Assembly (NCBI GenBank): GCA_947372865.1
Contig: CANBVJ010000008.1
Coordinates: 1 to 64,000 of the forward strand
DNA length: 64,000 nucleotides
Direction of reading: 5' to 3'
Source of the DNA: Comamonadaceae bacterium
Lineage (GTDB): Bacteria; Pseudomonadota; Gammaproteobacteria; Burkholderiales; Burkholderiaceae_C
Shown here: positions 3,092 through 63,463 of the stretch, piece by piece
Position numbering within the stretch: the first letter of the stretch is position 1
How the letters are laid out: the number at the start of each line of letters is the position of its first letter
Translations under genes and position numbers: made by a program
Notes under the pieces: model-generated
Database searches by the model: none
Seen by the model: the letters and a program-made list of their open reading frames with translations, nothing else
What the model was told of the DNA's origin: nothing

Positions 3092-3210
3092 TCGCGCCAA
3101 ACTACTGTCACGTGCGGTCTTGCAGCAGTAAATCTGCGGTAAACCGTGCGCGGCAAAGGCCGGGGAATTCGGGTAATCCCGTATGATTGGGGCTGAATTT
3201 ACTTGTCAAC

Positions 3211-4026
3211 ATGCAAACCTTCCCCCGCGCTCTCGTCGAACTCAATCACCTGACCTTTGGTTATGGTGACCGGGTCATCCTCGACGACGTTTCATTGCAA
3301 GTGCCGCGCGGCAAGGTCACGGCGCTCATGGGCGCCTCGGGCGGCGGCAAGACCACCATCCTGCGCCTGATCGGTGGCCAGAACCGCGCCCAGTCCGGCA
3401 CCTTGCTGTTTGACGGGCAAGACATCACGCCCATGCACCAGCAAGCGCTGTACGCCGCGCGCCGCCGCATGGGCATGCTGTTCCAGTTTGGCGCGCTGTT
3501 TGCCGACTTGTCGGTCTATGAAAACGTGGCCTTTCCGCTGCGCGAACACACCGACTTGTCTGAAGACCTGATCCGCGACATCGTGCTGATGAAACTCAAC
3601 GCCGTGGGCCTGCGTGGCGCGCGCGACCTCATGCCCAGCGAAGTCTCGGGCGGCATGGCCCGGCGCATCGCCCTGGCGCGCGCCATTGCCCTGGATCCGG
3701 AATTGGTGATGTACGACGAGCCGTTCTCCGGCCTGGACCCGATTTCCCTGGGCACCGCCGCGCACCTGATTCGCCAGCTCAACGATTCCATGGGCCTGAC
3801 CAGCATTTTTGTCTCGCACGAGCTGGAGCAGACCTTTGCCATTGCCGACCACGTGATCATCCTGGCCAACGGCAAAGTTGCCACCCAGGGCACGCCCGAC
3901 GAGGTGCGCCAGAGCACCGACCCGCTGGTCTACCAGTATGTGCACGCCCTGGCTGACGGCCCGGTGCGCTTTCACTACCCCAGTGTTAGCGTGGAACAAG
4001 ACTTTGGACCGGAGCGCACGCTATGA
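3211..4026 (+). CDS. mlaF: Phospholipid ABC transporter ATPase MlaF
   Basis: ATPase of the Mla system, which handles mislocalised phospholipids between outer and inner membranes. Residues 41-49 form the Walker A motif (GASGGGKTT), SGGMARR is the ABC signature and LVMYDEPFSGLD contains Walker B. I chose the ATG at 3211 (271 aa), because the family normally begins just before the ALVELNHLTFGYGD segment. A TTG at 3187 would add eight residues without a better ribosome site. The stop overlaps the mlaE start in ATGA, which suggests translational coupling. First gene of a six-gene mla cluster. Confidence 0.96.
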   Translation: MQTFPRALVELNHLTFGYGDRVILDDVSLQVPRGKVTALMGASGGGKTTILRLIGGQNRAQSGTLLFDGQDITPMHQQALYAARRRMGMLFQFGALFADLSVYENVAFPLREHTDLSEDLIRDIVLMKLNAVGLRGARDLMPSEVSGGMARRIALARAIALDPELVMYDEPFSGLDPISLGTAAHLIRQLNDSMGLTSIFVSHELEQTFAIADHVIILANGKVATQGTPDEVRQSTDPLVYQYVHALADGPVRFHYPSVSVEQDFGPERTL

Positions 4027-4805
4027 GCTGGATCAATCCCCGAGACATCGGTTTTGCCGCACGCCGCCAAATGGCCGAAATAGGCCACGGCGCGCGCTTG
4101 TTTTTCCGCCTGCTCACCACGCTGCCGGGCAGCCTGCGCCGTTTTGCGCTGATTCGTGACCAGATCCACTTTCTGGGCAACTATTCCCTGGTCATCATTG
4201 CGGTCTCGGGCCTCTTTGTGGGTTTCGTCTTTGGTTTGCAGGGCTATTACACGCTGCAGCGCTACGGCTCATCCGAGGCGCTGGGCCTGCTGGTAACGCT
4301 CAGTCTGGTGCGCGAACTCGGCCCGGTAGTGACGGCCCTGCTGTTTGCCGGACGTGCCGGCACGTCGCTCACTGCCGAAATTGGCCTGATGAAGGCCGGA
4401 GAACAAATCAGCGTGATGGAGATGATGGCCGTTGACCCGGTGCTGCGCGTGCTGGCGCCCCGGTTTTGGGCTGGCGTCATCACCATGCCGCTCTTGGCGG
4501 CCGTGTTCAGCGCCATGGGCATTATTGGAGGCTGGGTGGTGGGCGTGCTGATGATTGGCGTTGATTCGGGCTCGTTCTGGAGCCAAATCCAGGGTGGTGT
4601 GGATGTCTGGCGCGACGTGGGCAACGGCATCATCAAGAGCGTGGTGTTCGGTTTTACGGTAACTTTTGTGGCTTTGTTGCAAGGTTTTGAGGCCCAGCCC
4701 ACACCGGAAGGGGTGGCCAGCGCCACCACGCGCACGGTGGTGGTGGCTTCTTTGGCAGTTTTGGCACTGGATTTCATCCTGACCGCCATGATGTTTACGA
4801 TTTAA
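4023..4805 (+). CDS. mlaE: Phospholipid ABC transporter permease MlaE
   Basis: Inner-membrane permease of the MlaFEDB complex. At 260 residues it has the usual family length, with an amphipathic N-terminus (about residues 1-45) and several hydrophobic segments, including the family-typical LVRELGPVVTALLFAGRAG and a GLMKAGEQISVMEMM coupling region that would contact the ATPase. The start overlaps the mlaF stop by 4 bp and mlaD follows after 21 bp. Assignment rests on family pattern and gene order together. Confidence 0.96.
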   Translation: MSWINPRDIGFAARRQMAEIGHGARLFFRLLTTLPGSLRRFALIRDQIHFLGNYSLVIIAVSGLFVGFVFGLQGYYTLQRYGSSEALGLLVTLSLVRELGPVVTALLFAGRAGTSLTAEIGLMKAGEQISVMEMMAVDPVLRVLAPRFWAGVITMPLLAAVFSAMGIIGGWVVGVLMIGVDSGSFWSQIQGGVDVWRDVGNGIIKSVVFGFTVTFVALLQGFEAQPTPEGVASATTRTVVVASLAVLALDFILTAMMFTI

Positions 4806-4826
4806 CGGTGACTAGAAAGGTGTTGC

Positions 4827-5306
4827 ATGCAGCGCTCTAAGAATGATGTGTGGGTTGGGCTGTTTGTGCTCATCGGGGCGGTGGCCATCCTTTTTCTGGC
4901 TTTGCAGTCGGCCAATTTGCTGAGTCTGAACTTCCAGAAAACCTATACCGTCACGGCCAAGTTTGACAACGTGGGCGGCCTCAAACCCAAAGCTGCGGTG
5001 CGCAGCGCCGGCGTGGTGGTGGGCCGGGTGGACAAGATCGTGTTTGACGACAAATCCTTCCAAGCCCGCGTGGTGCTGGCGATGGAAAGCCGCTACAGCT
5101 TTCCCAAAGACAGCTCGCTCAAGATTCTCACCAGCGGTTTGTTGGGTGAGCAGTACCTAGGCATCGAAGCTGGCGCCTCGGACGTGCTGCTGGCGGCGGG
5201 GGATACCATTTCCAGTACCCAGTCCGCGGTGGTGCTGGAAAGCCTGATCAGCCAGTTCTTGTACAGCAAGGCGGCTGACGGTGCGGGCACCAAGCAAGCG
5301 GACTAG
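4827..5306 (+). CDS. mlaD: MCE-domain lipid-binding protein MlaD
   Basis: Substrate-binding component of the Mla complex, anchored in the inner membrane with its MCE domain in the periplasm. One N-terminal membrane helix (about residues 8-28, VWVGLFVLIGAVAILFLAL) precedes a single MCE domain with FDNVGGLKPKAAVRSAGVVV. At 159 residues it is slightly shorter than the E. coli protein because the C-terminal tail is short. It starts 21 bp after mlaE, and the stop is only 13 bp before the preferred mlaA start. Confidence 0.95.
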   Translation: MQRSKNDVWVGLFVLIGAVAILFLALQSANLLSLNFQKTYTVTAKFDNVGGLKPKAAVRSAGVVVGRVDKIVFDDKSFQARVVLAMESRYSFPKDSSLKILTSGLLGEQYLGIEAGASDVLLAAGDTISSTQSAVVLESLISQFLYSKAADGAGTKQAD

Positions 5307-5319
5307 GGGCACAGCGGGC

Positions 5320-6042
5320 ATGCGCACGGTGATTTGGGTAAAGCGGGTCAGCGCCATGGCGCTGCTGCTCGCCTGCCTGTTGCCCGCGCAGGCGCAGCCC
5401 AACCGCCCGGACCCGCGCGACCCCTTTGAGCCTTTTAACCGCGCCATGTTCTCGGTGAACGACGTGCTGGACCGCGCGCTGATCAAGCCGGTCGCAACCG
5501 TGTACAGCAAGCTTGCGCCCCACTGGGTGCGCAAGGGCGTGGGTAACTTTTTCGGTAATTTGGGCGATGTGTGGTCGGTGGTGAACAACGCGGCCACGCT
5601 CAAAGGCCAGGCCACCAGCGACAGCCTGGGGCGGGTCATGGTCAACAGCACGGTGGGTCTTTTGGGCCTGCTCGATGTGGCCACTGAGATGGATATCGAA
5701 AAACACCCGGCTGACTTTGGCCTAACCCTGGGCCGCTGGGGCGTGAAGCCCGGCCCTTACGTGGTGTTGCCGATATTGGGGCCTTACACCTTGCGTGAAG
5801 TCGTCGCCTTGCCCTTGGATTACCAGGGCAATCTGGTCAACCATGTAGCAGACCAGGGAACGCGCGACGGCTTGACCGTGCTCAATGCCATCGACGTGCG
5901 GGAGAGCTACCTTAAGGCGGGCGATGTGATTGACGCCGCCGCGCTGGACGCGTATTCCTTCACCCGCGACTCGTATTTCCAGCGCCAGCGCTACCGCCAG
6001 TACGACGGCGACGTGCCCGAAAGCCCGGAAGACGCGCCGTAG
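5320..6042 (+). CDS. mlaA: Outer-membrane lipid asymmetry protein MlaA (VacJ)
   Basis: Outer-membrane component of the Mla pathway that removes phospholipids from the outer leaflet. The VacJ domain is recognisable from DPFEPFNRAMFSVNDVLDRA and PYVVLPILGPYTLREVV. I prefer the ATG at 5320 (240 aa) to a GTG at 5281 that would overlap mlaD, since the ATG opens directly onto a signal peptide. A possible lipobox (LLAC, cysteine near residue 19) is imperfect; cleavage after AQA by signal peptidase I is the alternative. Gene order mlaD-mlaA-mlaC is as in other betaproteobacteria. Confidence 0.93.
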   Translation: MRTVIWVKRVSAMALLLACLLPAQAQPNRPDPRDPFEPFNRAMFSVNDVLDRALIKPVATVYSKLAPHWVRKGVGNFFGNLGDVWSVVNNAATLKGQATSDSLGRVMVNSTVGLLGLLDVATEMDIEKHPADFGLTLGRWGVKPGPYVVLPILGPYTLREVVALPLDYQGNLVNHVADQGTRDGLTVLNAIDVRESYLKAGDVIDAAALDAYSFTRDSYFQRQRYRQYDGDVPESPEDAP

Positions 6043-6142
6043 AATTTACGTTTACATAAAAATTACCGGGGCCTGTCCGTCAGGCAGGGCGCTTGCGCGT
6101 TGTGTGAAGAGGCCCACCGGTCTGAAATTATTAGGGAACCAC

Positions 6143-6772
6143 ATGAACCGTCAGTTATTTATCCGCCTGTTTGCCACGCTGGCTTTGGCCGTGTCGTTGG
6201 GCAGCGCCTGGGCCGAAGACGAGGCGCCGGACGCCTTTGTCAAGCGCATCTCGGTCGATGTGCTCGACACCATCAAGGCCGACAAGGCCATGCGCAACGG
6301 CGACATTGGCCGCATCGTCACCTTGGTGGATACCCGCATCATGCCGCACGTTGATTTTCAGCGCATGACGGCCTCTGCCGTGGGCCCCGGCTGGCGCCAG
6401 GCCACGCCCGAACAGCAAAAACGGCTGCAAGACGAGTTCAAGATTTTGCTGGTGCGCACCTACGCCGGTGCGCTGTCGCAGGTGAGCGACCAGACCGTGG
6501 TGATGAAGCCCTTGCGCGCTTCGCCCGAGGACAAAGAGCTGGTGGTGCGCAGCGAAGTGCGCGGCAGTGGCGACCCGATTCAGCTCGATTACCGCCTTGA
6601 AAAAACCCCGGGCCAGGGCGCAGGCTGGCGCATTTACAACCTCAATGTGTTGGGCGTGTGGCTGGTAGAAACCTACAAGAGCCAGTTTTCGCAGGAAATC
6701 AACGCCAAGGGCATTGACGGCCTGATCGACTCCTTGGCCGCGCGCAACAAATCCAACACCAAGAAAGTCTGA
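6143..6772 (+). CDS. mlaC: Periplasmic phospholipid-binding protein MlaC
   Basis: Soluble periplasmic carrier that shuttles phospholipids between MlaA and MlaFEDB. The ATG at 6143 gives 209 residues with a clear signal peptide (MNRQLFIRLFATLALAVSL, cleavage near SAWA-ED) and a Tol_Tol_Ttg2-type domain (VDTRIMPHVDFQRMTASAVG). The reading frame is open for more than 200 bp upstream, but only this ATG gives a signal peptide. About 100 bp separate it from mlaA, and mlaB begins one base after its stop. Confidence 0.95.
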   Translation: MNRQLFIRLFATLALAVSLGSAWAEDEAPDAFVKRISVDVLDTIKADKAMRNGDIGRIVTLVDTRIMPHVDFQRMTASAVGPGWRQATPEQQKRLQDEFKILLVRTYAGALSQVSDQTVVMKPLRASPEDKELVVRSEVRGSGDPIQLDYRLEKTPGQGAGWRIYNLNVLGVWLVETYKSQFSQEINAKGIDGLIDSLAARNKSNTKKV

Positions 6773-6773
6773 C

Positions 6774-7076
6774 GTGCTGCAACTGCCCGCCACCCTGACG
6801 CACGCCCAGGCTTCGGCTTGTCTGCGGGATTTGGGCCAGGCCTTGGCGGCACAGCCAGGCGCTGCGGTGCTAGATGCGTCGGCCTTGACCAGTTTTGATT
6901 CTTCGGCGCTGGCAGTCTTGCTGGAGCTCCAGCGCGTGGGCGTCCGCCTGGGAAAAGCGCTGGAGGTGCAGGGTTTGCCCGCGCGCCTGCTGGCGCTGGC
7001 CACACTCTACGGCGTGCAGACCTTGCTGGGCGCGGGTGCTGCTCCCGTGGCGGGTGACGCGTCAACTGCGGGCTGA
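6774..7076 (+). CDS. mlaB: STAS-domain protein MlaB
   Basis: Small cytoplasmic STAS-domain subunit that binds and stabilises MlaF. The 100 residues include the typical core LDASALTSFDSSALAVLLEL, whose serine/threonine cluster matches anti-sigma-antagonist-like folds. It uses a GTG start at 6774, one base after the mlaC stop. Small size and position complete the mlaFEDACB set. I see no sign of truncation. Confidence 0.9.
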   Translation: MLQLPATLTHAQASACLRDLGQALAAQPGAAVLDASALTSFDSSALAVLLELQRVGVRLGKALEVQGLPARLLALATLYGVQTLLGAGAAPVAGDASTAG

Positions 7077-7136
7077 TTCTGCCACTGCCCCTGCTTTTCG
7101 CCGGGTAAGCGGCGGCGCGTAAAATCGCGTGCTCCC

Positions 7137-8084
7137 ATGCTCGCAATTTCCTTCCAATCCATCTCCAAGGCCTACTCGTCCCCCAAAGGACCCCCAGGCA
7201 CCACCTTTTTAGCGGTTGACAATGTCAGTCTCGGCATTGAGGAGGGGGAGTTTTTTGGCTTGCTCGGCCCCAATGGCGCGGGCAAAACCACCATGATCAG
7301 CATGCTCGCCGGCCTGACCCGGCCCAGCAGCGGTTCGGCCAGCGTCTTGGGCCACGATGTGCAAAATGACTTTGCCGCGGCCCGTCGCAGCCTTGGTGTG
7401 GTGCCGCAAGAGCTGGTGTTTGACCCCTTTTTCAATGTGCGAGAGGCCTTGCGCATCCAGTCGGGCTACTTCGGCGTCAAGAACAACGACGCCTGGATTG
7501 ACGAACTGCTAGAAAGCCTGGGCCTGGCCGACAAGGCCGAAGCCAATATGCGCCAGCTCTCGGGCGGCATGAAGCGCAGGGTGCTAGTGGCGCAGGCCTT
7601 GGTGCACAAGCCGCCGGTGATTGTGCTCGACGAGCCTACGGCCGGCGTGGACGTGGAACTGCGCCAGACGCTGTGGCAGTTCATCGCCAAACTCAACAAG
7701 CAAGGCCATACCGTGCTGCTGACCACGCACTACCTGGAAGAGGCCGAGGCCTTGTGCGGGCGCATTGCCATGCTCAAGTCTGGGCGCATCGTGGCGCTGG
7801 ACCACACCAGCACGCTGCTCAAGGCGGCGTCGAGCAATGTGCTGCGCTTCAAGGTGGACGGCGACTTGTCGCCCGCGCTGGCCGCGCAGGCGCGTGTGAC
7901 CGGGCGCATCGTGCAGTTCCCGGCGCATGACGCACTGGAAATCGAACACTTTTTGGCCGCCGTGCGCGAGTCCGGCCTGGTGGCCCAGGACGTGGAAATT
8001 CGCAAAGCCGATCTGGAAGATGTGTTTTTGGACGTGATGCAAAAGCATTCTGGTCAAACGGCGACTGCGGGAGTCTTGGCATGA
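7137..8084 (+). CDS. ABC-2 type exporter, ATP-binding protein (YadG/CcmA-like)
   Basis: ATPase of an ABC-2 export system of unknown substrate. Walker A (GPNGAGKTT, about residues 46-54), signature LSGGMKRR and Walker B VIVLDEPTAGVD are all intact, followed by a C-terminal extension typical of drug- or polysaccharide-export ATPases. The stop overlaps the start of the permease gene by 4 bp (ATGA). The pair sits between mlaB and bolA. That position is common in related genomes and suggests an envelope role, but the substrate cannot be read from sequence. Confidence 0.9.
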   Translation: MLAISFQSISKAYSSPKGPPGTTFLAVDNVSLGIEEGEFFGLLGPNGAGKTTMISMLAGLTRPSSGSASVLGHDVQNDFAAARRSLGVVPQELVFDPFFNVREALRIQSGYFGVKNNDAWIDELLESLGLADKAEANMRQLSGGMKRRVLVAQALVHKPPVIVLDEPTAGVDVELRQTLWQFIAKLNKQGHTVLLTTHYLEEAEALCGRIAMLKSGRIVALDHTSTLLKAASSNVLRFKVDGDLSPALAAQARVTGRIVQFPAHDALEIEHFLAAVRESGLVAQDVEIRKADLEDVFLDVMQKHSGQTATAGVLA

Positions 8085-8836
8085 ACGGCTGGCAAACGCT
8101 TTTGTACAAGGAAGTGCTGCGCTTTTGGAAGGTCGCGTTTCAAACCATCGCGGGCCCCGTGCTCACCGCCATGCTGTACCTGCTGATCTTTGGCCACGCG
8201 CTGGAAGACCACGTCAAGGTCTATGACCAGGTGAGCTACACCGCGTTTTTGGTGCCCGGCCTGGCCATGATGAGCTTGCTGCAAAACAGCTTTGCCAACA
8301 GTTCGTCTTCGCTCATCATGAGCAAGGTGATGGGCAACCTGGTCTTCATCATGCTCACGCCGCTGTCGTACTGGCACTGGTTTGTGGCCTATGTGGGCGC
8401 GGCGGTAGTGCGCGGCCTGGTGGTGGGGGCGGGCGTGTTTGTGATTTCCGCGCTGTTTACCCATATCAGTTGTGCCCAGCCCTTGTTTATTGTGGCTTTT
8501 GCGGTGATGGGCGCAGCCCTCATGGGTACCTTGGGGTTGATTGCTGGCCTGTGGGCCGAAAAATTTGACCAACTCGCGGCCTTCCAGAACTTTGTGGTCA
8601 TGCCCATGACGTTTTTGAGCGGCGTGTTTTATTCCATCCATTCGCTGCCCGCCTTCTGGCAGGGCGTGAGCCACTTCAACCCGTTTTTCTACATGATCGA
8701 CGGCTTTCGCTACGGCTTTTTTGGTGTGAGCGATGTCTCGCCCTGGCTCAGTTTGAGCGTGGTGGGCGTGGCACTGGCGCTGGTCAGTGGCATTGCGCTG
8801 CAGTTGCTGCGCAGCGGCTACAAAATCCGCAGCTAA
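8081..8836 (+). CDS. ABC-2 type exporter, permease (YadH-like)
   Basis: Membrane partner of the preceding ATPase; 251 residues with about six hydrophobic segments and the ABC-2 signature region near the C-terminus (QNFVVMPMTFLSGVFYSIHS). Translation is probably coupled to the ATPase through the ATGA overlap. bolA starts 18 bp after the stop, which keeps the gene within the long plus-strand run. Substrate unknown. Confidence 0.9.
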   Translation: MNGWQTLLYKEVLRFWKVAFQTIAGPVLTAMLYLLIFGHALEDHVKVYDQVSYTAFLVPGLAMMSLLQNSFANSSSSLIMSKVMGNLVFIMLTPLSYWHWFVAYVGAAVVRGLVVGAGVFVISALFTHISCAQPLFIVAFAVMGAALMGTLGLIAGLWAEKFDQLAAFQNFVVMPMTFLSGVFYSIHSLPAFWQGVSHFNPFFYMIDGFRYGFFGVSDVSPWLSLSVVGVALALVSGIALQLLRSGYKIRS

Positions 8837-8854
8837 TTTTTACCGATTGCCTTC

Positions 8855-9097
8855 ATGACCGCCGACCAACTCCAAGCCCTCATTACCGCAGGTTTGCCCT
8901 GCGACCACTGTGCCCTGGAGGGCGACGGCCGCCACTGGTACGCCACCATCGTGTCGGGCGCCTTTGAGGGCAAGCGCCTGATTGGGCGCCACCAGATGGT
9001 GTACGCCACCCTGGGCACGCGCATGCAAACCGACGAGGTGCACGCCTTGTCGATGAAAACCTATACCCCGGCCGAATGGGCGCAGCAATCGGCCTGA
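8855..9097 (+). CDS. ibaG: BolA family protein (IbaG-like)
   Basis: BolA-fold protein of 80 residues. The family helix-strand pattern is visible, with a [20 protein letters not shown] segment and the [16 protein letters not shown] loop whose histidine contributes to Fe-S handling with monothiol glutaredoxins. IbaG-type BolA genes commonly sit directly upstream of murA, as here (16 bp spacing). The role is probably Fe-S trafficking or envelope stress, inferred from family knowledge. Confidence 0.9.
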
Positions 9098-9113
9098 GCC
9101 AATCTACAAGACC

Positions 9114-10379
9114 ATGGACAAATTACTCATACGCGGCGGGCGCAGCCTGCATGGCACGGTGCCTATTTCCGGCGCCAAAAATGCCGCCTTGCCCGAACTC
9201 TGCGCCACGCTGCTCACCGCCGAGCCGGTGACGCTGCGCAACGTGCCACGCCTGCAAGACGTGTCCACCATGCTTAAGCTGATTCGCCACATGGGCGTGC
9301 AGATGGAGCAGCACGCCGATGGCAGCGTCAGCGCCAATGCCGGCGCGCTGAACCTGCCCGAAGCCCCTTATGAGCTGGTGAAAACCATGCGCGCCTCGGT
9401 GCTGGCGCTGGGCCCCTTGCTGGCGCGTTTTGGCCATGCCAAGGTGTCGCTGCCCGGCGGCTGCGCTATTGGCTCGCGTCCGGTGGACCAGCATTTGCTG
9501 GGGCTGACCGCCATGGGCGCCGAAATCAGCGTGGAGCATGGCTACATGCTGGCGCGCGTGGGCGGCGGGCGCAAGCGTCTCCAAGGCGCGCGCATCACCA
9601 CTGACATGGTGACAGTGACCGGCACTGAAAACTTTTTGATGGCCGCCGCGCTGGCCGAGGGCGAAACCATTCTGGAAAACGCTGCGCAAGAGCCCGAGAT
9701 TCCCGACCTGGCCGAAATGCTGATTGCCATGGGTGCGCGCATTGAGGGCCACGGCACGAGCCGCATCCGCATCCAGGGCGTCGAAGCCCTGCACGGCTGC
9801 GACCACCAGGTGGTGGCCGACCGCATTGAGGCGGGCACCTTTTTGTGCGCAGTGGCCGCCACCGGCGGTGACGTGGTGCTGCAACACGGCCGCGCCGACC
9901 ATCTGGATGCGGTGATCGAAAAATTGCGCGCGGCCGGCGCCACGGTGAAGGCGGTGGACGGTGGCATTCGCGTGCAGTCCAGCGGGCGCTTGCAGGCCCA
10001 GGGCTTTCGCACCACCGAATACCCGGGCTTTCCGACCGACATGCAGGCGCAATTCATGGCGCTTAATTGCATCTCGCACGGCGCGTCCAAGGCCACTGAG
10101 ACGATTTTTGAGAACCGCTTCATGCACGTCAACGAGCTGGTGCGCTTGGGCGCCAACATCCAGATCGAGGGCAAAGTGGCGCTGGTGCAAGGCGTGGCCG
10201 CGCTCTCGGGCGCGACCGTCATGGCTACTGATTTGCGCGCCTCTGCCTCGCTGGTGATTGCCGGCCTGGTAGCCCAGGGCGAAACCGTGGTCGAGCGCAT
10301 CTACCACCTGGACCGCGGCTACGACCAAATGGAATCCAAGCTGCGCGGCATTGGCGCCGACATTGAGCGCATCAAATAA
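9114..10379 (+). CDS. murA: UDP-N-acetylglucosamine 1-carboxyvinyltransferase
   Basis: First committed enzyme of peptidoglycan synthesis: transfers enolpyruvate from PEP to UDP-GlcNAc in the cytoplasm. The 421 residues match the family. The active-site cysteine that fosfomycin alkylates is present in [14 protein letters not shown], and the N-terminal [20 protein letters not shown] and C-terminal [21 protein letters not shown] segments are typical. It lies between bolA and hisG with short spacers. Confidence 0.98.
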
Positions 10380-10421
10380 GGCGGCGCTTTGCACCGCCAC
10401 CCCACCGAAAACGAGAACCGC

Positions 10422-11087
10422 ATGATCACCATTGCCTTGTCCAAAGGCCGCATTTTTGAAGAAACGCTGCCGCTCTTGCGCGCCGCCGGCATCGAAGTGC
10501 TGGACGACCCCGAGAAATCGCGCAAGCTGATTCTGGACACCAACCACGCGGACGTTCGTGTGTTGGTGGTGCGCGCCACCGACGTGCCTACTTATGTGCA
10601 GTTTGGCGGCGCCGATATGGGCATCACCGGCAAAGACACGCTGCTCGAACACGGCGGCGACTGGGGCAGCGCCACCAGCGGCGCGGGCCTGTTCCAGCCG
10701 CTGGATTTGCAGATTTCCAAATGCCGCATCAGCGTGGCCGTGCGCGCCGACTTTGACTACGCCCACGCGGTGCGCCAGGGCGCGCGCCTGAAGGTGGCGA
10801 CCAAGTACGTGGCCATTGCCCGCGAGTTTTTTGCCACCAAAGGCGTGCACGTGGACCTGATCAAGCTCTACGGCAGCATGGAACTCGCGCCATTGGTGGG
10901 CATGGCCGACGCCATCGTGGATCTGGTGTCTACCGGCAACACGCTCAAGGCCAACAACCTGGTCGAGGTAGAGCACATCATGGACATCAGCGCGCGCCTG
11001 GTGGTCAACCAAGCGGCCCTGAAGCTCAAGCGCGAGCCGATCCGCAACATCATCAACGCCTTTGCTGGCGCGATTGGCAAGGCTTGA
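10422..11087 (+). CDS. hisG: ATP phosphoribosyltransferase catalytic subunit, short form
   Basis: First step of histidine synthesis (ATP + PRPP to phosphoribosyl-ATP). The ATG at 10422 gives 221 residues beginning [18 protein letters not shown], the expected start. This is the short HisG lacking the C-terminal regulatory domain; such enzymes need the HisZ subunit for activity and feedback control. No hisZ is in this window, so it must lie elsewhere. [15 protein letters not shown] is the PRPP-binding motif. Nine bases separate the stop from the preferred hisD start. Confidence 0.97.
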
Positions 11088-11095
11088 ATCCGGCC

Positions 11096-12412
11096 ATGAC
11101 ATTTACTGCCACGCCCGCGCGCCTGTCCACCCAGGACGCCGACTTTGAGGCCCAGTTTCAAGCCCGCCTGCATTGGTCCGCTGACACCGACGCCGCCATC
11201 GAGCAGCGCGTAGCCGATATCCTGGCCGATGTGCAGCAGCGCGGCGACGCCGCCGTGCTGGACTACACCGCGCGCTTTGACGGACTGAGCGCCGACAGCG
11301 TGTCGGCGCTGGAACTCACCCAGACTGAACTCAAGGCCGCGTTTGACGCCATTCCGCAGGCCCAGCGCCAGGCGCTGGAATTTGCTGCGGCTCGGGTGCG
11401 CAGCTACCACGAGGCGCAAAAACAGGCCTGCGGCCAAAGCTGGAGCTACCGCGACGCGGACGGCACGCTCCTGGGCCAAAAAGTCACGCCGCTGGACCGC
11501 GTGGGCATTTACGTGCCCGGCGGCAAGGCGGCCTATCCTTCCAGCGTGCTCATGAACGCCATTCCCGCCCACGTGGCCGGGGTGGGCGAAATCATCATGG
11601 TCGTGCCCACGCCGCAGGGGGTGAAAAACCCGCTGGTGCTGGCGGCGGCCTATGTGGCGGGCGTGACACGCGCCTTTACCGTGGGTGGCGCGCAGGCTGT
11701 GGCCGCGCTGGCCTATGGCACGGCGACCATTCCTGCGGTCAACAAAATCACCGGCCCGGGCAACGCCTATGTGGCGGCTGCCAAGCGCCGCGTGTTTGGC
11801 ACCGTGGGCATTGACATGATTGCTGGCCCGAGCGAGATCTTGGTGCTGGCCGACGGCAGCACGCCTCCTGACTGGGTGGCCATGGACTTGTTCAGCCAGG
11901 CCGAACACGACGAGCTGGCGCAAAGCATTTTGCTGTGCCCCGATGCCGCTTATATCGACCAGGTACAAGCCGCTATTGACCGCTTGCTGCCCACCATGCC
12001 GCGCGCTGACATCATCGCCAAGTCGCTCACCGGGCGCGGCGCGCTGGTGCACACCCGCAGCATGGAAGAAGCCTGCGCCCTGAGCAACCGCATCGCGCCC
12101 GAGCACCTGGAAGTCTCCAGCGCCGACCCGCACCGCTGGGAGCCACTGTTGCTGCACGCCGGGGCCATCTTTTTGGGCGCCTACACCAGCGAATCGCTGG
12201 GCGACTACTGCGCCGGGCCCAACCATGTGCTGCCCACCAGCGGCACGGCGCGCTTTTCCAGCCCGCTGGGCGTGTATGACTTTCAAAAACGCAGCAGCCT
12301 GATAGAGGTGAGCGCCGCCGGTGCGCGCGTGCTCGGGCCGGTAGCCGCTGTGCTGGCCTATGGCGAAGGTCTGCAGGCCCACGCCCGCGCCGCAGAAATG
12401 AGGCTCGAATGA
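11096..12412 (+). CDS. hisD: Histidinol dehydrogenase
   Basis: Catalyses the last two steps of histidine synthesis (histidinol to histidine, NAD-dependent, zinc enzyme). The ATG at 11096 gives 438 residues; an upstream TTG at 11084 would overlap hisG and is less likely. Recognisable segments are [10 protein letters not shown]-like [48 protein letters not shown] and [17 protein letters not shown]. The stop overlaps hisC in ATGA. Confidence 0.98.
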
Positions 12413-13560
12413 GCGGCTCGCTTCCCCCAAGCCCGCAAGCGCTGGTGGCGCGGCGCATCCGCGCCGATGTGCAGGCCATGCACGCCTATCTGGTGCAAGA
12501 CCCGCAAGGTATGGTCAAGCTTGACGCCATGGAAAACCCCTACCGCCTGAGCGCCGAATTGCAGAGCGCGCTGGGCGCGCGCCTGGGCGCCGTGGCGCTC
12601 AACCGCTATCCTGGCGTGCGTGTGCACGACCTGCGCCAGGCGCTCGCGCACTACGCGCACATGCCCGCGGGCTACGACATTGTTTTGGGTAACGGCTCGG
12701 ACGAGCTGATTTCGCTGCTCAGCCTGGCTTGCGCCGTGGGCACCGATCGGGTGACCGGCAAACCGCCGGTGGTGCTGGCGCCTGTGCCCGGCTTTGTGAT
12801 GTACGCCATGAGCGCGCAACTCCAGGGCCTGGACTTCGTCGGCGTGCCCCTGACGCCCGACTTTGCGCTGGACGTGCCGGCCATGCTGGCCGCCATTGCG
12901 CAGACCCAGCCGGCCATCGTCTACCTGGCCTACCCGAACAACCCCACCGCCAATCTGTGGAGCGAGGCCGACATGGCGCAGGTGGTGGCCGCCGCTGCGC
13001 AGAGTGGCAGCCTGGTAGTGCTCGATGAGGCCTACCAGCCTTTTTCCAGCCGGAGCTACCTGGACACCATTCGCGCCCAGCCGCAGATTCACACCCATGT
13101 GCTGCTGATGCGCACCTTGAGCAAATTTGGCCTGGCCGGTGTGCGCCTGGGGTATTTGATGGGGCCGCAGGCCCTGGTAGCCGAGTTGGACAAGGTGCGC
13201 CCGCCCTACAACATCAGCGTGCTCAACTGCGAGTGCGCTCTGTTTGCGCTAGAGCACGCCGACGCCTTTGCCGCTCAGGCCCGGGCCATTTGCGAGGAGC
13301 GCGCCCGCTTGCTGCAGGCGCTGCGCCAGCTGCCCGGCCTGCAGGTGTGGGGCAGCGACGCCAATATGGTGTTGGTGCGCGTGCCAGCGCGCGCGGGCCA
13401 AGACGCCGCCCAGGCGGTGTTTGAATCCATGCGCGCGCGCAGCGTGCTGGTAAAGAACGTTTCTAAAATGCACCCCTTGCTGGCAGATTGTCTGCGCCTG
13501 ACGGTCGGCACCGCCGACGAGAACACCCAGCTGCTCGCAGCACTAAAGGCTTCCCTATGA
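12409..13560 (+). CDS. hisC: Histidinol-phosphate aminotransferase
   Basis: PLP-dependent class I/II aminotransferase making histidinol phosphate; 383 residues. The PLP lysine sits in [18 protein letters not shown], and [14 protein letters not shown] and [10 protein letters not shown] are the other cofactor-binding motifs. Start overlaps hisD by 4 bp and stop overlaps hisB by 4 bp (ATGA at both junctions), so translation is probably coupled. Position in the his operon separates it from other aminotransferases. Confidence 0.96.
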
Positions 13561-14201
13561 CCCAACACGCCCTGATTGAAGTGCCCGGCGCCAACGCCGG
13601 CGGCCCGCGCCCCGCGCGCACGGCTGAGGTGGCCCGCAACACCGCCGAGACGCGCATCCACGTCAAGCTCAATCTCGACGGCAGCGGCCATTCGCGCCTG
13701 TCCACCGGAATTGGCTTCTTCGACCACATGCTCGACCAGATCGCCCGCCACGGGCTGATTGACCTGGACATTGAGGCTGAGGGCGATTTGCACATCGACG
13801 GCCACCACACGGTAGAAGACGTGGGCATCACCCTGGGCCAGGCGGTGTTGAAGGCCGTGGGCGATAAAAAAGGCATTCGCCGCTACGGCCACGCCTATGT
13901 GCCGCTGGACGAGGCCTTGTCCCGCGTGGTGATTGACCTCTCAGGCCGCCCGGGCCTGACCATGAACATTCCGTTTACCAGCGGCAGCATCGGCGGCTTT
14001 GACACCCAGCTCACGCACGAGTTCTTTCACGGTTTTGTCAACCACGCCGGTGTCACCCTGCACATTGACAACCTCAAGGGCGACAACGCCCACCACCAGG
14101 CCGAAACCGTGTTCAAGGCCTTTGCCCGCGCCCTGCGCAGTGCACTCGAATACGATCCGCGCGCGCTGGATGCCATTCCTTCGACCAAGGGCTCGCTCTA
14201 G
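13557..14201 (+). CDS. hisB: Imidazoleglycerol-phosphate dehydratase
   Basis: Dehydrates imidazole glycerol phosphate; metal-dependent. The 214 residues are the monofunctional form, with no fused histidinol phosphatase, unlike E. coli HisB. The metal-binding histidines are in [25 protein letters not shown] and ELTHEFF-like [17 protein letters not shown]. About 20 residues of poorly conserved N-terminal leader precede the domain. The ATG at 13557 overlaps the hisC stop. The histidinol-phosphate phosphatase is not in this window. Confidence 0.97.
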
Positions 14202-14232
14202 CGCCTGACGGCGTGTTCCTGCTTCGCTCTCT

Positions 14233-14889
14233 ATGAAAACAGTCGCCATCATTGATTACGGCATGGGCAATTTGCGCTCGGTCACGCAGGCCGTGATGCA
14301 CGCCGCCGAGCACGAAGGCGTGCAGGCGGTTTGGGCGCGTACGCCCCAAGAAGTGATGGACGCCGAGCGCGTGGTGCTGCCCGGCCAGGGCGGCATGCGC
14401 GACTGCATGCGCGAGCTGCACGACTCGGGCATGCTGGCCGCCGTGCTGCACGCCGCCGCAAACAAGCCGCTCATGGGCGTGTGCGTGGGCATGCAAATGC
14501 TGCTGGACCATAGCGAAGAACTTGACACCGCCTGCCTGGGCCTGATTCCCGGCAATGTGGTGAAGTTTGATCTGGCCGGCCAAATGCAGGCCGACGGCAG
14601 CCGCTTCAAGGTGCCGCAAATGGGCTGGAACCAGGTCTGGCGCAACAACCATGGCGGCGCGCCGCACCCGGTCTGGGGCGAGGTGCCCGACGGCAGTTAC
14701 TTCTATTTTGTGCACAGTTATTACGCCAAACCGTCCGATGCGCGCCACAGCGTGGGCGAAACCGACTATGGTTCGCGCTTTAGTTCGGCCATTGCGCGTG
14801 ATAATATTTTTGCCACCCAGTTCCACCCGGAAAAAAGCGCCAAACAGGGCCTGGCCCTGTACCGCAACTTTTTGCGCTGGAACCCGTAA
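14233..14889 (+). CDS. hisH: Imidazole glycerol phosphate synthase, glutaminase subunit
   Basis: Glutamine amidotransferase that supplies ammonia to HisF; 218 residues. The class I triad is visible: nucleophile cysteine in [15 protein letters not shown] and His/Glu in [13 protein letters not shown]. The N-terminal [14 protein letters not shown] is diagnostic. Its partner hisF lies three genes downstream; the two encode one enzyme complex. Confidence 0.97.
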
Positions 14890-14932
14890 GCTCCTTCTTC
14901 CGTTTTATTTCTTCATCCACCGCTAAAGCACC

Positions 14933-15673
14933 ATGCTGTTAATTCCTGCGATTGACCTAAAAGACGGCCACTGTGTTCGCCTCAAACAGGGCGATATGGA
15001 CCAATCCACCACTTTCGGCGAAGACCCGGCGGTCATGGCGCGCAGTTGGGTGGACAAGGGCGCGCGGCGCTTGCACCTGGTGGACCTGAACGGCGCCTTT
15101 GCCGGTCACCCCAAGAACGAGGCGGCGATCCGCAAAATCCTCAAGGAAGTCGGCAGCGAAATCGACGTGCAGCTCGGCGGCGGCATTCGCGACCTTGACA
15201 CCATCGAGCGCTATTTGGATGCCGGTCTGCGCTACGTCATCATTGGCACCGCAGCCGTCAAAAACCCCGGTTTTCTGCAAGACGCCTGCACCGCTTTTGG
15301 CGGCCACATCATCGTCGGACTGGACGCGCGCGACGGCAAGGTGGCCACCGACGGCTGGAGCAAGCTCACCCGACACGACGTGGTCGATTTGGGCAAAAAG
15401 TTTGAAGACTATGGCGTCGAATCCATCATTTACACCGACATCGGCCGCGACGGCATGCTCAGCGGCATCAATATTGACGCCACCGTCAAACTCGCCCAGG
15501 CCCTGTCGATTCCGGTAATCGCCTCGGGCGGCCTGAGCAACCTGGCCGACATTGAGGCCCTGTGCGCCGTAGAAGACGAGGGCGTGGAGGGCGTCATTTG
15601 CGGCCGCGCCATTTACACCGGTGACCTCGACTTTGCTGCTGGACAAGCCCGCGCTGACGAAATCAATGGCTGA
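14933..15673 (+). CDS. hisA: Phosphoribosylformimino-5-aminoimidazole carboxamide ribotide isomerase
   Basis: TIM-barrel ProFAR isomerase, the step before HisF/HisH. The 246 residues start with [20 protein letters not shown] (catalytic Asp in strand 1), with the second catalytic Asp in [16 protein letters not shown] and phosphate-binding glycines in [12 protein letters not shown]. Its last 8 bases overlap the preferred start of an aldose-epimerase-like gene that separates it from hisF. Confidence 0.97.
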
Positions 15674-16526
15674 TGGCGGCGCGCTGTGCCGCAGCGAAAC
15701 CCAGTACGGCCAAGCCGGTCAGCGTCTCACGCTGGCCAATGGCGACACGGTGTGGGTGGCTTTGCAGGGCGCGCACGTGGTGTCCTGGCAGGCGGCGGGC
15801 CGTGAGCGCCTGTATGTGAGCCCGCGCAATGTGTGGGACGGCCAAAGCGCCATTCGCGGCGGCGTGCCCCTGTGTTTTCCCCAGTTCAACCAGCGCGGTA
15901 GCCTGCCCAAACACGGATTTGCCCGCAACAGCGTTTGGACGGCGGGCCCGGCCACGGTGCAGGGCGACCATGTGCAGCAAGATTTCACGCTCGCCTCCAG
16001 TGCGCCAAGCCTGGCGCTCTGGCCCCAGCATTTCGAGGCCACGCTGCGCGTTACCTTGGTCCCTAATGAGCTGACCGTGGCGCTGTCGGTGCACAACACC
16101 GGTACCCAGGCGCTGGAGTTTTCCGGCGCATTGCACAGCTACTTGGCGGTGGACGACATTGCGCAAGCGCGCCTGCATGGCCTGCAAGGCCAGCCCGAGT
16201 GGGACGCGCTGACCGATACCCACGCCAGCGCCGCTGCCGAACTGCAATTTGACGGCGAATTTGACCGCGTCTACGGGGCCGCACCTGGCCTCTTGGCGCT
16301 GCAAGACGGCGTGCATCGCCTGGACATCAGCCAAAGCCCGGGCTGGGCCAACAGCGTGGTCTGGAACCCCGGGCGCGACAAATGCGCGGCCATGGCCGAC
16401 TTGCCCGCCGACGGTTTTTCTCATTTTGTGTGCGTGGAGGCGGCACAAGTAATGTCGCCGATTACTGTTGCGGCCGCTGCCAACTGGCAGGGCTGGCAGC
16501 GTTTTCGCGCGCTGCAGGAAGCATAG
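15666..16526 (+). CDS. Aldose 1-epimerase / hexose-6-phosphate mutarotase-like protein
   Basis: Protein of 286 residues with the YeaD-type galactose-mutarotase-like beta-sandwich; it probably interconverts anomers of hexose 6-phosphates. Active-site-like features are the substrate-arginine region [15 protein letters not shown] and the histidine in [11 protein letters not shown]. The ATG at 15666 overlaps the hisA stop by 8 bp, and the stop is 2 bp before hisF, so it is embedded in the his operon although it has no known histidine role. A farther upstream start at 15621 would overlap hisA by 53 bp and is less likely. Confidence 0.88.
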
Positions 16527-18886: not shown

Positions 18887-19345
18887 GTGTTTGATATCGG
18901 TGTTACCAAGCTCGCCATCGTCGGCGGCATTGCGCTGATCGTCATTGGCCCGGAAAAGCTGCCCGGTTTGGCCAAAACCCTGGGCACGCTGCTCGGACGC
19001 GCACGGCGCTATGTGGCAGACGTGAAAGAAGAGGTCAACCGCTCGATTGACCTCGAAGAGCTGCGCAAAATGAAGGACACGATGGAAACCGCCGCGCAAG
19101 CCGTGGAAACTTCCATCCAGACCAGCGCCGACGAGGTGCAAAAAACCTGGTCGGCGGCGACGTATTCGGGCCAAGAGGCGGTGTCACTGCCTTATTACTC
19201 CGTCCACCAATTGCCCAAGAAACGCTGGCGCACCAAAATCAGCGCCACCCCCAACTGGTACAAGGCCCGCTCTGGCACCCGCACCAAGGCCCTCTCAGGC
19301 GCGGCCCGCGTGGCGCGCTTTCGGCCACCCAAAGTGAATCCATGA
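18887..19345 (+). CDS. tatB: Sec-independent translocase subunit TatB
   Basis: Receptor-complex subunit of the Tat translocase. It has a GTG start at 18887 and 152 residues: [20 protein letters not shown] membrane helix, the [13 protein letters not shown] hinge that marks TatB, a charged amphipathic helix, and a basic C-terminus. It overlaps tatC by 4 bp (ATGA). Confidence 0.95.
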
Positions 19346-61459: not shown

Positions 61460-61810
61460 ATGAACACCATCCTCCTATTGCTGTTGTCCAATGTTTTCAT
61501 GACCTTTGCCTGGTACGGCCACCTGAAATACGGCCACGACTGGCCGCTGTGGCAGGTGATTTTGGTGTCTTGGGGTATCGCGCTGTTTGAATATTGCCTG
61601 GCCGTACCCGCCAACCGCCTGGGCTACGGTGCTTTTAGCGGCTTTCAGCTCAAGATTCTCCAGGAGGTGATCACGCTGACGATTTTCATCGCCTTTGCCG
61701 TGCTGTTTCTGAAGGAAAAAATGGCCTGGAACTACCTGGTGGCCTTCGGCTTTTTGGGCGGCGCGGCGTTTTTTGCGTTTGCGTTTGAGGCCGCGCCTGC
61801 GGGGACGTAG
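61460..61810 (+). CDS. DMT family small membrane protein (DUF486)
   Basis: 116 residues with four hydrophobic segments (ILLLLLSNVFMTFAWYGHLK, LWQVILVSWGIALFEYCLAV, VITLTIFIAFAVLFL, YLVAFGFLGGAAFFAFAF). The conserved VPANRLGY and GAFSGFQLKILQE motifs mark DUF486. Half-size relative of the EamA transporter fold; probably works as a dimer, substrate unknown. Ends 20 bp before the 3' end of the convergent tRNA-Arg. Confidence 0.88.
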   Translation: MNTILLLLLSNVFMTFAWYGHLKYGHDWPLWQVILVSWGIALFEYCLAVPANRLGYGAFSGFQLKILQEVITLTIFIAFAVLFLKEKMAWNYLVAFGFLGGAAFFAFAFEAAPAGT

Positions 61811-61830
61811 GCGCCACCATAGCCCTAGCG

Positions 61831-61905
61831 TGGTCCCGCCGACAGGAATCGAACCTGTATTTCACGCTTAGGAGGCATGCGCACTATCCATTGTGCTACG
61901 GCGAG
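61831..61905 (-). tRNA. tRNA-Arg (anticodon CCT)
   Basis: 75-nt cloverleaf with encoded CCA on the minus strand. Acceptor CTCGCCG pairs with CGGCGGG (one T-G pair), anticodon arm CATGC-CTCCTAA-GCGTG carries CCT, T arm ACAGGTTCGATTCCTGT. A TAAAAT box lies about 10 bp before the 5' end. The 5' half plus upstream flank recurs at 62546-62602. Confidence 0.95.
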
Positions 61906-61924
61906 GGGTGGGGCATTTTAGGGG
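61868..61924. repeat. Direct repeat, copy 1 (5' half of tRNA-Arg and its upstream flank)
   Basis: 57 bp that recur at 62546-62602 with 3 mismatches; the first 40 bp are identical. The inner border falls in the anticodon loop. This copy belongs to the complete tRNA. Looks like an att-type repeat. Confidence 0.85.
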
Positions 61925-62011
61925 CTTGACCCTCTACTGGATGGTGTTTGGGTTCTGTGGGGGTGTCTGTCTGGCTCTGATGGGTGGCTGAAGACGGGTT
62001 GAGGGGGCCGA

Positions 62012-62389
62012 AAGGACTTCCTAGTCAAGAATTGGCGGCAAACAGAGATCGGTCGTGATTTCGATATTTTTGAGGAAGACGGTGAACTTGTCGGTCAGCA
62101 GTACCAAACAGACACAGGTCCAATGGATGTTCTGGCTATCAAGAAGGACAAGTCGCAGTTGCTTGTTGTAGAGCTCAAGAAGGGACGTGCCAGTGATGTC
62201 GTTGTTGGGCAGGTTCTGAGATACATGGGCTTTGTCAAACAGGAATTGGCTGATCCAAATCAAGTTGTCAAGGGCATCATCATTGCATTGGAAGACGACG
62301 TAAAGATTAGACGTGCCTTGGCAATGACCCCAGATATTTCGTTCTACCGATATGAGATTTCGTTCAAATTGAACAAGGTAACCCTGTAG
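62012..62389 (+). pseudogene. Truncated NucS-like PD-(D/E)XK nuclease gene (C-terminal part only)
   Basis: The frame is open from 62003 to the stop at 62389. Recognisable homology begins with KDFLVKNWRQTEIGRDFDIF at 62012, before any start codon; the first ATG in frame is 62123. The nuclease core is present (TDTGPMDVLAI and LLVVELKKG, i.e. D...E-x-K), then DVVVGQVLRYMGFVKQEL and a short C-terminus. From memory, full-length relatives have an additional N-terminal domain, so this is about the last 125 residues. Base composition is clearly AT-richer than its surroundings, which suggests transfer. An 88-residue product from 62123 would lack part of the fold. Confidence 0.75.
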
Positions 62390-62736
62390 ATTTACACCAT
62401 CAACTGGACTAACTGCAGAGGAAATCTAGAGTGGGGTAAGACTGGGGACACCCAATCCACCCCCAGTTTGTGTCAATCCACTGGACACACTCTGATGGTG
62501 ATCACTGAGGATAAACACTGGATATTCATTGCCAAATCGGAGATATTAGGAGGCATGCGCACTATCCATTGTGCTACGGCGAGGGACAGGGCATTTTAGG
62601 GGGTAGGTCCCAAGTGGATTGGGTGTGCAGTACTTCCTTTATGCATTCAAAATTCCAAGGCCTTCGCTTCTGTTAAAGCCACTCGGTGCGTGCATGGCGC
62701 GCGCGTGGGGTTTTGACGATTCTTTACGGATAGCTT
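62390..62736. other. Non-coding part of the integration scar
   Basis: 347 bp without a convincing ORF. It contains the second tRNA-Arg fragment (62546-62602), a 13-bp inverted repeat (ACACCCAATCCAC at 62448-62460 and its complement at 62614-62626) and otherwise AT-richer sequence with no recognisable gene. Confidence 0.7.
62546..62602. repeat. Direct repeat, copy 2 (isolated 5' half of tRNA-Arg with upstream flank)
   Basis: Repeats 61868-61924 at 54 of 57 positions, including the TAAAAT box. At the anticodon loop it runs into unrelated sequence, so no tRNA can form. Candidate second att site of a lost or decayed element. Confidence 0.85.
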
Positions 62737-63453
62737 TTAAATCAGCGCCGCTGTGCGCAGGCCTTCAAGGTTGACGATGGTGAGCCGCGAGTAGCTGACC
62801 CGCAGCAAGGCCTTGGCGGTCAGTGCCTGCAGCACTGCGTTGATGCCTTGGCGGCTTACACCTAACCAGTCGCCCAGGTCTTCTTGGGAAATCTTGATCT
62901 TTAACACCAGCCCGCCCGGGCGCTGTTCGCCATACAGGCTTGAGAGCGCAATCAGCAGGCGGGCAACGCGGGCTTCGATCGGCATGCCGGAGTCGGCCGC
63001 CAGTCGTTCGTGCAGCAGGCGGCTGCGGAAGGCCAGTTGCACCTCGAAGGCCCGGCCCAAACCGGGATCGCTCTGGCGCAACTCGCGCACGGCGGGCCCG
63101 GGAATGCGAAGGACGAGGGTGTTGGCGCTGCGGGCAATCTGGTCGTTGATATGGCCCAGGCCGTCGAGCATGCTGATGATGCCCACCACATCGCCGGGCT
63201 GCATGAAGCTGATGAGGTGGCGGTGCCCGTCGGAATTCAGGATGCGCGTCTCCAACGAGCCTTGCACTACAAGACACAAGGCGTCAAAAGGCTGCCCGCG
63301 CAGGATCAGAGCTTCGCCTTTGCCGAGCCTGAGCATGCTGCCAGCGGCCACCAGGCTGTCGAGCGTTTGGGGCAGGCAATCCCTAAAACCAAGGGTTTCT
63401 ACCAAGATCGCGAGCGCGACTTCCTTGGGATTTGAGGGGTTAATTTTTGTCAT
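62737..63453 (-). CDS. Crp/Fnr family transcriptional regulator
   Basis: 238 residues: a cyclic-nucleotide-binding-type beta-roll (about residues 30-150, LRLGKGEALILRGQPFDALC, FMQPGDVVGIISML) and a winged-helix C-domain with the recognition helix in ISQEDLGDWLGVSRQGINAV. No N-terminal cysteine cluster as in Fnr, so it does not look like an oxygen sensor of that type; the effector is unknown. A TGTCA-N6-TGACA palindrome overlaps its start codon. Divergent from a TPP-enzyme gene. Confidence 0.9.
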   Translation of the reverse strand: MTKINPSNPKEVALAILVETLGFRDCLPQTLDSLVAAGSMLRLGKGEALILRGQPFDALCLVVQGSLETRILNSDGHRHLISFMQPGDVVGIISMLDGLGHINDQIARSANTLVLRIPGPAVRELRQSDPGLGRAFEVQLAFRSRLLHERLAADSGMPIEARVARLLIALSSLYGEQRPGGLVLKIKISQEDLGDWLGVSRQGINAVLQALTAKALLRVSYSRLTIVNLEGLRTAALI

Positions 63454-63463
63454 TGATTTGACA
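63448..63463. promoter_or_regulatory. Palindrome TGTCA-N6-TGACA (candidate Crp/Fnr-type operator)
   Basis: Has the half-site length and spacing of CRP-family sites (TGTGA-N6-TCACA) with altered bases. It overlaps the ATG of the regulator gene and lies 75 bp before the divergent TPP-enzyme gene. Confidence 0.5.

Follow-up and report, generated by a model that had tools for sequence, protein, structure and literature searches.

Probable remnant of a small integrative element that rebuilt the 5′ half of a tRNA-Arg(CCT) gene in a Comamonadaceae genome

In the Islander collection, 5′ fragments were recorded in 159 of 3919 tDNA islands, and islands of this kind are described there as exceptions (PMC4383910). 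As that report presents them, they have a complete tRNA gene with a 5′ fragment upstream in the same orientation, the element lying between the two and the crossover falling in the anticodon loop. For the archaeal pTN3-like integrases, attB is reported to be the 5′ half of a tRNA gene, which is whole after integration and parted from its original promoter (PMC8371274, PMC5495485). Classical elements of the 3′ type employ a tyrosine integrase and an overlap in the anticodon loop, and the tRNA gene is rebuilt at one junction. In tRNA-dependent lysogeny, as it has been described (PMC10865867), the element safeguards the tRNA gene that it attacks. The locus analysed here is like each of these systems in the respects named.

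The locus lies in a stretch of 64,000 nucleotides (the window) from a draft genome of 84 contigs with an estimated contamination of 4.5%. Here a 57-bp block occurs twice at an offset of 678 bp (Table 1), with 54 of 57 positions identical; an ungapped scan of the whole 64-kb window over offsets of 60 to 1499 gave no second offset reaching 45/57. One copy belongs to the single intact tRNA-Arg(CCT) gene identified by ARAGORN (Rfam RF00005, 61.5 bits), and tRNA is the only Rfam match within 61700-62800. The edge of the block at 61868 is tRNA position 38, the final base of the 7-nt anticodon loop. A -10-like box, TAAAAT, is common to both copies and lies on the minus strand, its second occurrence being at 62593-62598. 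The DNA between the copies has a G+C content of 45-48% in 300-base windows, compared with 54-68% in windows wholly within the flanks, and it contains a fragment of a NucS_C-type nuclease gene (Pfam PF01939, E 4.7e-9). An earlier note on this DNA had reported the repeat ending in the anticodon loop, the duplicated box and the AT-richer DNA with a truncated nuclease gene, and all of these observations were borne out.

The truncated copy lies upstream of the complete tRNA gene in the same orientation and ends in the crossover subsite of the anticodon loop, which is the layout of a 5′-fragment tDNA island. No integrase gene is present in the 678-bp unit and no homologue was found in the rest of the genome at E 1e-20; since it is without this gene, we class the unit as a remnant and not as a functional island. 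The truncated 5′ half is seen once only in the window's own genome, where the best match to the tRNA-Arg(CCT) gene after the truncated copy is tRNA-Arg(TCT).

Table 1. Features of the tRNA-Arg(CCT) locus and its insert in the window
Feature	Coordinates	Strand	Basis or remark
DMT_6 (DUF486) gene, host flank on the 3′ side	61460..61810	+	Pfam
tRNA-Arg(CCT), reconstituted	61831..61905	-	3′ half, 61831-61867, assigned to host; 5′ half to position 38, 61868-61905, element-borne
Repeat copy 1: element-borne 5′ half and promoter block	61868..61924	-	repeat and flank comparison
TAAAAT, element-borne -10-like box before the reconstituted tRNA gene	61915..61920	-	sequence
Element right end	61925..62014	-	motif CCACAGAACC at 61951-61960; similarity to G082
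Putative deletion joint, inner boundary of the right end	about 62010-62027		position uncertain
NucS_C-type nuclease gene, 3′ part, start deleted	62015..62389	+	PF01939 over 62027-62389; colinear with 219-aa protein L067:12517-13176
Element left end	62390..62545	-	motif TGGATTGGGT at 62450-62459; similarity to G024 and G082
Repeat copy 2: original tRNA-Arg 5′ half of the host (62546-62583) and promoter block	62546..62602	-	runs on into crp-side host DNA as in G046
Crp/Fnr-type regulator gene, host flank	62737..63453	-	Pfam; adjoins the empty site in G046

With the flank of the window as query, 61 genomes of the genus were searched, the window's own included, and only one, G046, has a match that continues from the crp-side flank into the tRNA gene. 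This genome matches window positions 62546-63460 at 87% and has the order crp-type gene, one intact tRNA-Arg(CCT), tRNA-Phe and tRNA-Gly, the downstream tRNA genes being as in the window. When the window flanks are joined at the anticodon loop, 260 bp can be aligned with G046 at 84.6% identity with three gap positions. This alignment of the joined flanks defines the insert as 678 bp and supplies the empty site with a single tRNA gene that the earlier note had proposed as a check. Two further genomes, G035 and G004, have the crp-type gene on one contig and the tRNA gene on another. The comparison with G046 also overturns the view that the intact gene is the original one. Judged from this alignment, the truncated copy is the host's own 5′ half with its promoter, and the 5′ half and TAAAAT box of the intact gene were supplied by the element, the DNA upstream of them being an element end and not host sequence.

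The search for element ends, made over 103 genomes of the genus, gave matches in 26. It brought in 28 loci, 25 of which have an intact tRNA-Arg(CCT) gene. Truncated copies are few: apart from the window's own, present in two of the loci, G082 has two and G024 has one, and G042 (L028/L068) has an altered copy. The last of these breaks inside the loop and continues differently; it may be a deleted tRNA gene and was left out of the counts. An ancestral two-copy state, or a second copy forming part of a complete tandem tRNA gene, is not what these loci present. The element part itself was found, the window aside, only in G082, at two places, and in G024.

Contig 176 of G082 carries a complete element of 7.5 kb bracketed by a truncated 5′ half (448-503) and an intact tRNA gene (8022-8096), that is, the full island with an integrase gene between the same two repeats which had been named as the second check. 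The integrase (1290-2375; PF00589, E 1.2e-28, 100.5 bits) is encoded by a whole open reading frame whose start is about 790 bp from the truncated copy. Residues R212, H297, R300, H323 and Y332 are invariant in seven of seven aligned integrases, and we take them to be the catalytic R..H-x-x-R..H..Y residues of a tyrosine integrase. The element further encodes a replication protein of 1005 aa (2711-5728) that resembles members of phage replication, primase and helicase families, an RNase T-type exonuclease (7191-7907), a weak ribbon-helix-helix match and a protein from a phage family with no assigned function. The DNA to the left of the truncated copy resembles a right end, with 91% identity over 139 nt, and the G082 elements therefore seem to stand in tandem.

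The match between these elements and the window unit extends to both ends. A further junction on contig 71 of G082 is followed by a gene for a NucS_C-type nuclease of 219 aa, and the window element can be aligned with this contig over 589 bp at 94.2%. On contig 176, window positions 61868-62027, the repeat included, match L066:347-503 at 83.4% over 163 nt and L066:7923-8059 at 81.7% over 142 nt. The left end together with the truncated 5′ half is matched in G024 (95% over 206 nt) and twice in G082 (95% over 212 nt and 91% over 211 nt); G024 shares the left junction of the window in a different chromosomal context. From the G082 matches, the window element consists of a left end, the 3′ part of the nuclease gene and a right end, with the deletion joint near 62010-62027. 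A G082-type integrase is encoded in one of the 103 genomes of the genus at E 1e-20, and the window's own genome is not among them; the tyrosine integrase (PF00589) is thus present in the relative and absent from the window. With the empty site in G046 and the full element in G082, the earlier interpretation as the scar of an integrated element that duplicated the 5′ half is upheld. Its description as a decayed or partly excised island is right as to decay, in the form of an internal deletion derivative; partial excision is needless, because both element ends are present.

We conclude that the window very probably contains what is left of a small integrative element that rebuilt the 5′ half of tRNA-Arg(CCT) and then lost its interior. 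The empty site, the full element with the same ends, the breakpoint in the loop and the recurrence in another tRNA gene (see below) all come from comparison of sequences. In the course of events that we favour, a tyrosine integrase would have carried out recombination, across the 7 bp of the anticodon loop, between the attP of the element and the tRNA-Arg(CCT) gene of the host. Because the right arm of attP would carry a tRNA 5′ half and a tRNA-type promoter region, the host promoter and 5′ half would have been displaced to the far end of the element and a complete gene rebuilt, with the promoter and 5′ half of the element joined to the 3′ half of the host. Transcription would then presumably proceed from the element's promoter. 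A later internal deletion, in the order of events that we infer, would have removed most of the element, including the start of the nuclease gene, to give an insert of 678 bp with both ends kept. The parent element, in the part now lost, presumably carried an integrase of the G082 type; in G082 the integrase and nuclease genes are on separate contigs, and the nuclease contig soon ends, by eye in the start of a transposase gene.

Other explanations of the locus were weighed against this one. The alternative put forward in the earlier note, in which the tRNA region was duplicated in tandem and one copy then suffered a deletion, without any mobile element, agrees with the presence of just two copies of a short block, close together, and with an insert that retains no integrase. 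However, the DNA between the copies corresponds to both ends of the integrase-bearing G082 element, the left end being found in G024 as well, in other contexts, and the empty site in G046 is without this DNA. We regard tandem duplication as highly improbable and as refuted by the element ends shared with G082. Integration on the usual 3′ side, with the intact gene retaining the host 5′ half, has the weight of precedent, since 3′ fragments are recorded in 3760 of the 3919 islands (PMC4383910); yet the displaced piece here is a 5′ half, homology to the host extends beyond it on the crp side, and element right-end DNA stands upstream of the intact gene. The flank comparison with G046 refutes this reading, which is almost certainly wrong.

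A different history would be that the 678-bp unit moved as such, as a small non-autonomous element mobilised in trans by the integrase of a relative, and did not decay in place. Retention of both ends with their left and right motifs would suit such a unit, as would a genome without an integrase of this group. Nevertheless, the nuclease gene is cut at its start, which fits a deletion, and the genome has one truncated 5′ half only; we consider mobilisation in trans rather unlikely.

The search for relatives of the integrase covered 399 genomes of the family at E 1e-30, 399 genomes of the order and 84 genomes of the genus of G285 at E 1e-60, and a collection of named genomes, where six exact peptide patterns gave 7 loci. 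Among viral contigs, no relative was found with a single-integrase query, and an alignment query gave one distant relative (30%). In phage and plasmid records all integrases were below 60% identity, with 25-29% among the 20 listed of each. Altogether, tRNA duplications were looked for at 15 distinct integrase loci, of which seven belong to the 5′ type (two by one end only), one belongs to the 3′ type, and seven are assigned to neither. The 5′-type elements are at tRNA-Arg(CCT) in G082 and L084 (Polynucleobacter) and at tRNA-Gly(CCC) in L081, L082 (Limnohabitans sp. Jir61) and G884; in G445 and G753, which were typed by one end, the contig holds only the truncated tRNA-Gly(CCC) side. The sole 3′-type element, L083, is at tRNA-Arg(CCG), and its integrase is 62% identical to that of G082. 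ARAGORN, BLAST and tRNA-arm patterns gave no assignable tRNA fragment in L085, L086, L089, L101, L102, L103 and L104, and these loci were counted for neither polarity.

Where an intact tRNA gene is at hand, the 5′ copies span tRNA positions 1-38 (Arg CCT) or 1-37 (Gly CCC) and the 3′ copy in L083 spans positions 31-76, which places the breaks at the edges of the anticodon loop. By eye, the breaks in G884 and G753 are also at the loop edge; that in G445 is less exact, as the bases after the loop could still be tRNA stem. A second, independent empty site was found for the L082 island, whose joined flanks can be aligned with G422 over 2118 bp at 83%. In L105 (G753:C12, 1-4970), a partial integrase gene and a replication gene are inverted relative to the truncated tRNA-Gly(CCC) end. 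In G884 (L141, G884:C1:2316000-2335900, 13922-16216), an insert of about 1.2 kb splits the integrase gene near residue 167. In L155 (G885:C1:379500-399400, 19084-19180), a tRNA-Gly(CCC) gene has a 5′-type element right end upstream, with neither an exact truncated copy nor an integrase match in the 19 kb upstream; this is perhaps an older remnant, and G885 was excluded from the polarity counts.

In a tree of 16 integrases, from which the interrupted G884 sequence was excluded, the 3′-type L083 grouped with five of the 5′-type rows (85/99) in a group drawn open, without a resolved inner order. The partial 5′-type sequence L105 falls outside this group, its placement being uncertain. Clustering of the 5′ label in the tree is not significant, 118 of 500 shuffles being as low. 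The tree is compatible with a switch of polarity, whichever its direction.

The element ends were compared for shared signals. The sequence TANAAT occurs within the final 60 bp before the tRNA gene in all six element-borne regions upstream of intact tRNA genes (window, G082, L081, L082, L084 and G884), a count with no shuffled control. It is also present in both regions upstream of truncated copies taken as tandem ends (G082 and L084) and is absent from the single 3′-type right end. The box starts 15-18 nt from the tRNA gene, except in L084, where the distance is 42 nt. A consensus promoter scan gave no sigma-70 match at the window tRNA gene, so that the promoter is indicated by the -10-like box only.

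Two further motifs mark the ends. The best match to TGGAWTGGGT lies 85-98 nt past the loop in ten of ten 5′-type left ends, with at most one mismatch in nine of them, and the motif is exact in L083. At the other end, CNACAGAACC is exact in six of nine right ends, L083 among them, and is missing in both L084 ends and in G884. Shuffled controls, scored at one mismatch, gave a match rate of 1% for each left end and 5% for each right end. These counts are not independent, since both motifs were picked from the very ends in which they were counted and the ends of the window, G082 and G024 are close copies. It may be that the integrase uses the motifs as arm sites. Among 5′-type elements that have the right motif, 86 nt separate the left motif from the loop and 54-59 nt separate the right motif from the tRNA start. 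The distances in L083 are 100 nt between the left motif and the tRNA end and 58 nt between the right motif and the fragment. By these distances, the half-tRNA segment seems to be similarly placed between the motifs in both polarity types, the 3′ type being represented by a single case. A conserved hairpin at the left-end motif was also considered and rejected: five left ends folded as single-stranded DNA did not clearly surpass their shuffled versions (z +0.5 to -2.0), and with folds so close to shuffles only the sequence motif was retained.

A different arrangement at tRNA-Arg(CCT) was observed elsewhere in the genus. In L073 (G013:C137:9000-25000, about 5473-10755), the native gene is split at the anticodon loop, with its halves about 5.2 kb apart; when joined, they are called as tRNA-Arg(CCT) by ARAGORN. 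The element between them has its own complete tRNA-Arg(CCT) gene (5670-5744), 100% identical to the tRNA of the window, and an integrase of another clade adjoins the 3′ half. This integrase, a weak profile match (E 2.4e-14), belongs with the whole-tRNA elements and was not counted with the 15 loci. L092 (G001:C1:3200000-3216000, 2127-13455) has the same split-tRNA layout around an element of 11.25 kb, with a divergent whole tRNA-Arg(CCT) gene (2358-2432, minus strand) and, by eye, a cytosine methyltransferase gene. Its integrase groups with that of G013 (100/100), and its joined native halves equal an intact tRNA allele in G041 and G029. In G031, a 5′ half (L160, G031:C84, about 530-620) lies beside a divergent whole tRNA-Arg(CCT) gene (L160:304-378), and a 3′ half is found on another contig (L093, G031:C246, about 4880-4960); together they are perhaps a third split tRNA-Arg(CCT) gene. 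Whole-tRNA replacement at tRNA-Arg(CCT) seems to have taken place in G013, G001 and perhaps G031, and the arrangement in L073 resembles tRNA-dependent lysogeny as described in PMC10865867.

A broader reading, which we put forward as possible rather than probable, is that these loci represent a betaproteobacterial group of small integrative elements for which promoter capture is the standard use of a tRNA gene, attP carrying a tRNA 5′ half with a promoter. The arm could flip, as L083 with its 3′ half, similar spacing and same end motifs would suggest, and tRNA-Arg(CCT) would be kept working in the genus by different restoration logics, whole-tRNA replacement included. If this is true, an arginine or glycine tRNA comes under the control of the element at every integration; if the element promoter works, transcription of the tRNA passes from host to element and the mature tRNA is unchanged. 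The complete elements, two empty sites, tandem pair, remnants and 3′-type cousin with its 62% identical integrase make it testable what fixes which tRNA half an element carries and how polarity can switch.

Overall, 5′-fragment islands form a rare kind that is already known, and in the window unit we see the remnant of a new member. Islander, as described, rejects islands of less than 2 kb and tests for an integrase gene (PMC4383910), so the window remnant would escape it; compared with the islands in that collection, there are here several related integrases with 5′ polarity, at two tRNA species. Integration of the pTN3-like elements is reported to disrupt the integrase gene, with the integrase promoter said to drive expression of the tRNA (PMC8371274, PMC5495485), whereas G082 has a whole integrase reading frame and the arm that restores the tRNA gene is the one distant from the integrase. 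In tRNA-dependent lysogeny, by the published description, a whole replacement tRNA is supplied and the split gene is left unrebuilt (PMC10865867). Classical 3′-type elements, of which L083 is an example, differ in that the host promoter stays in place and the 3′ half is duplicated. What is new in comparison with these systems is a group of related integrases favouring 5′ polarity, with ends that carry a -10-like box and with a close relative of the 3′ type.
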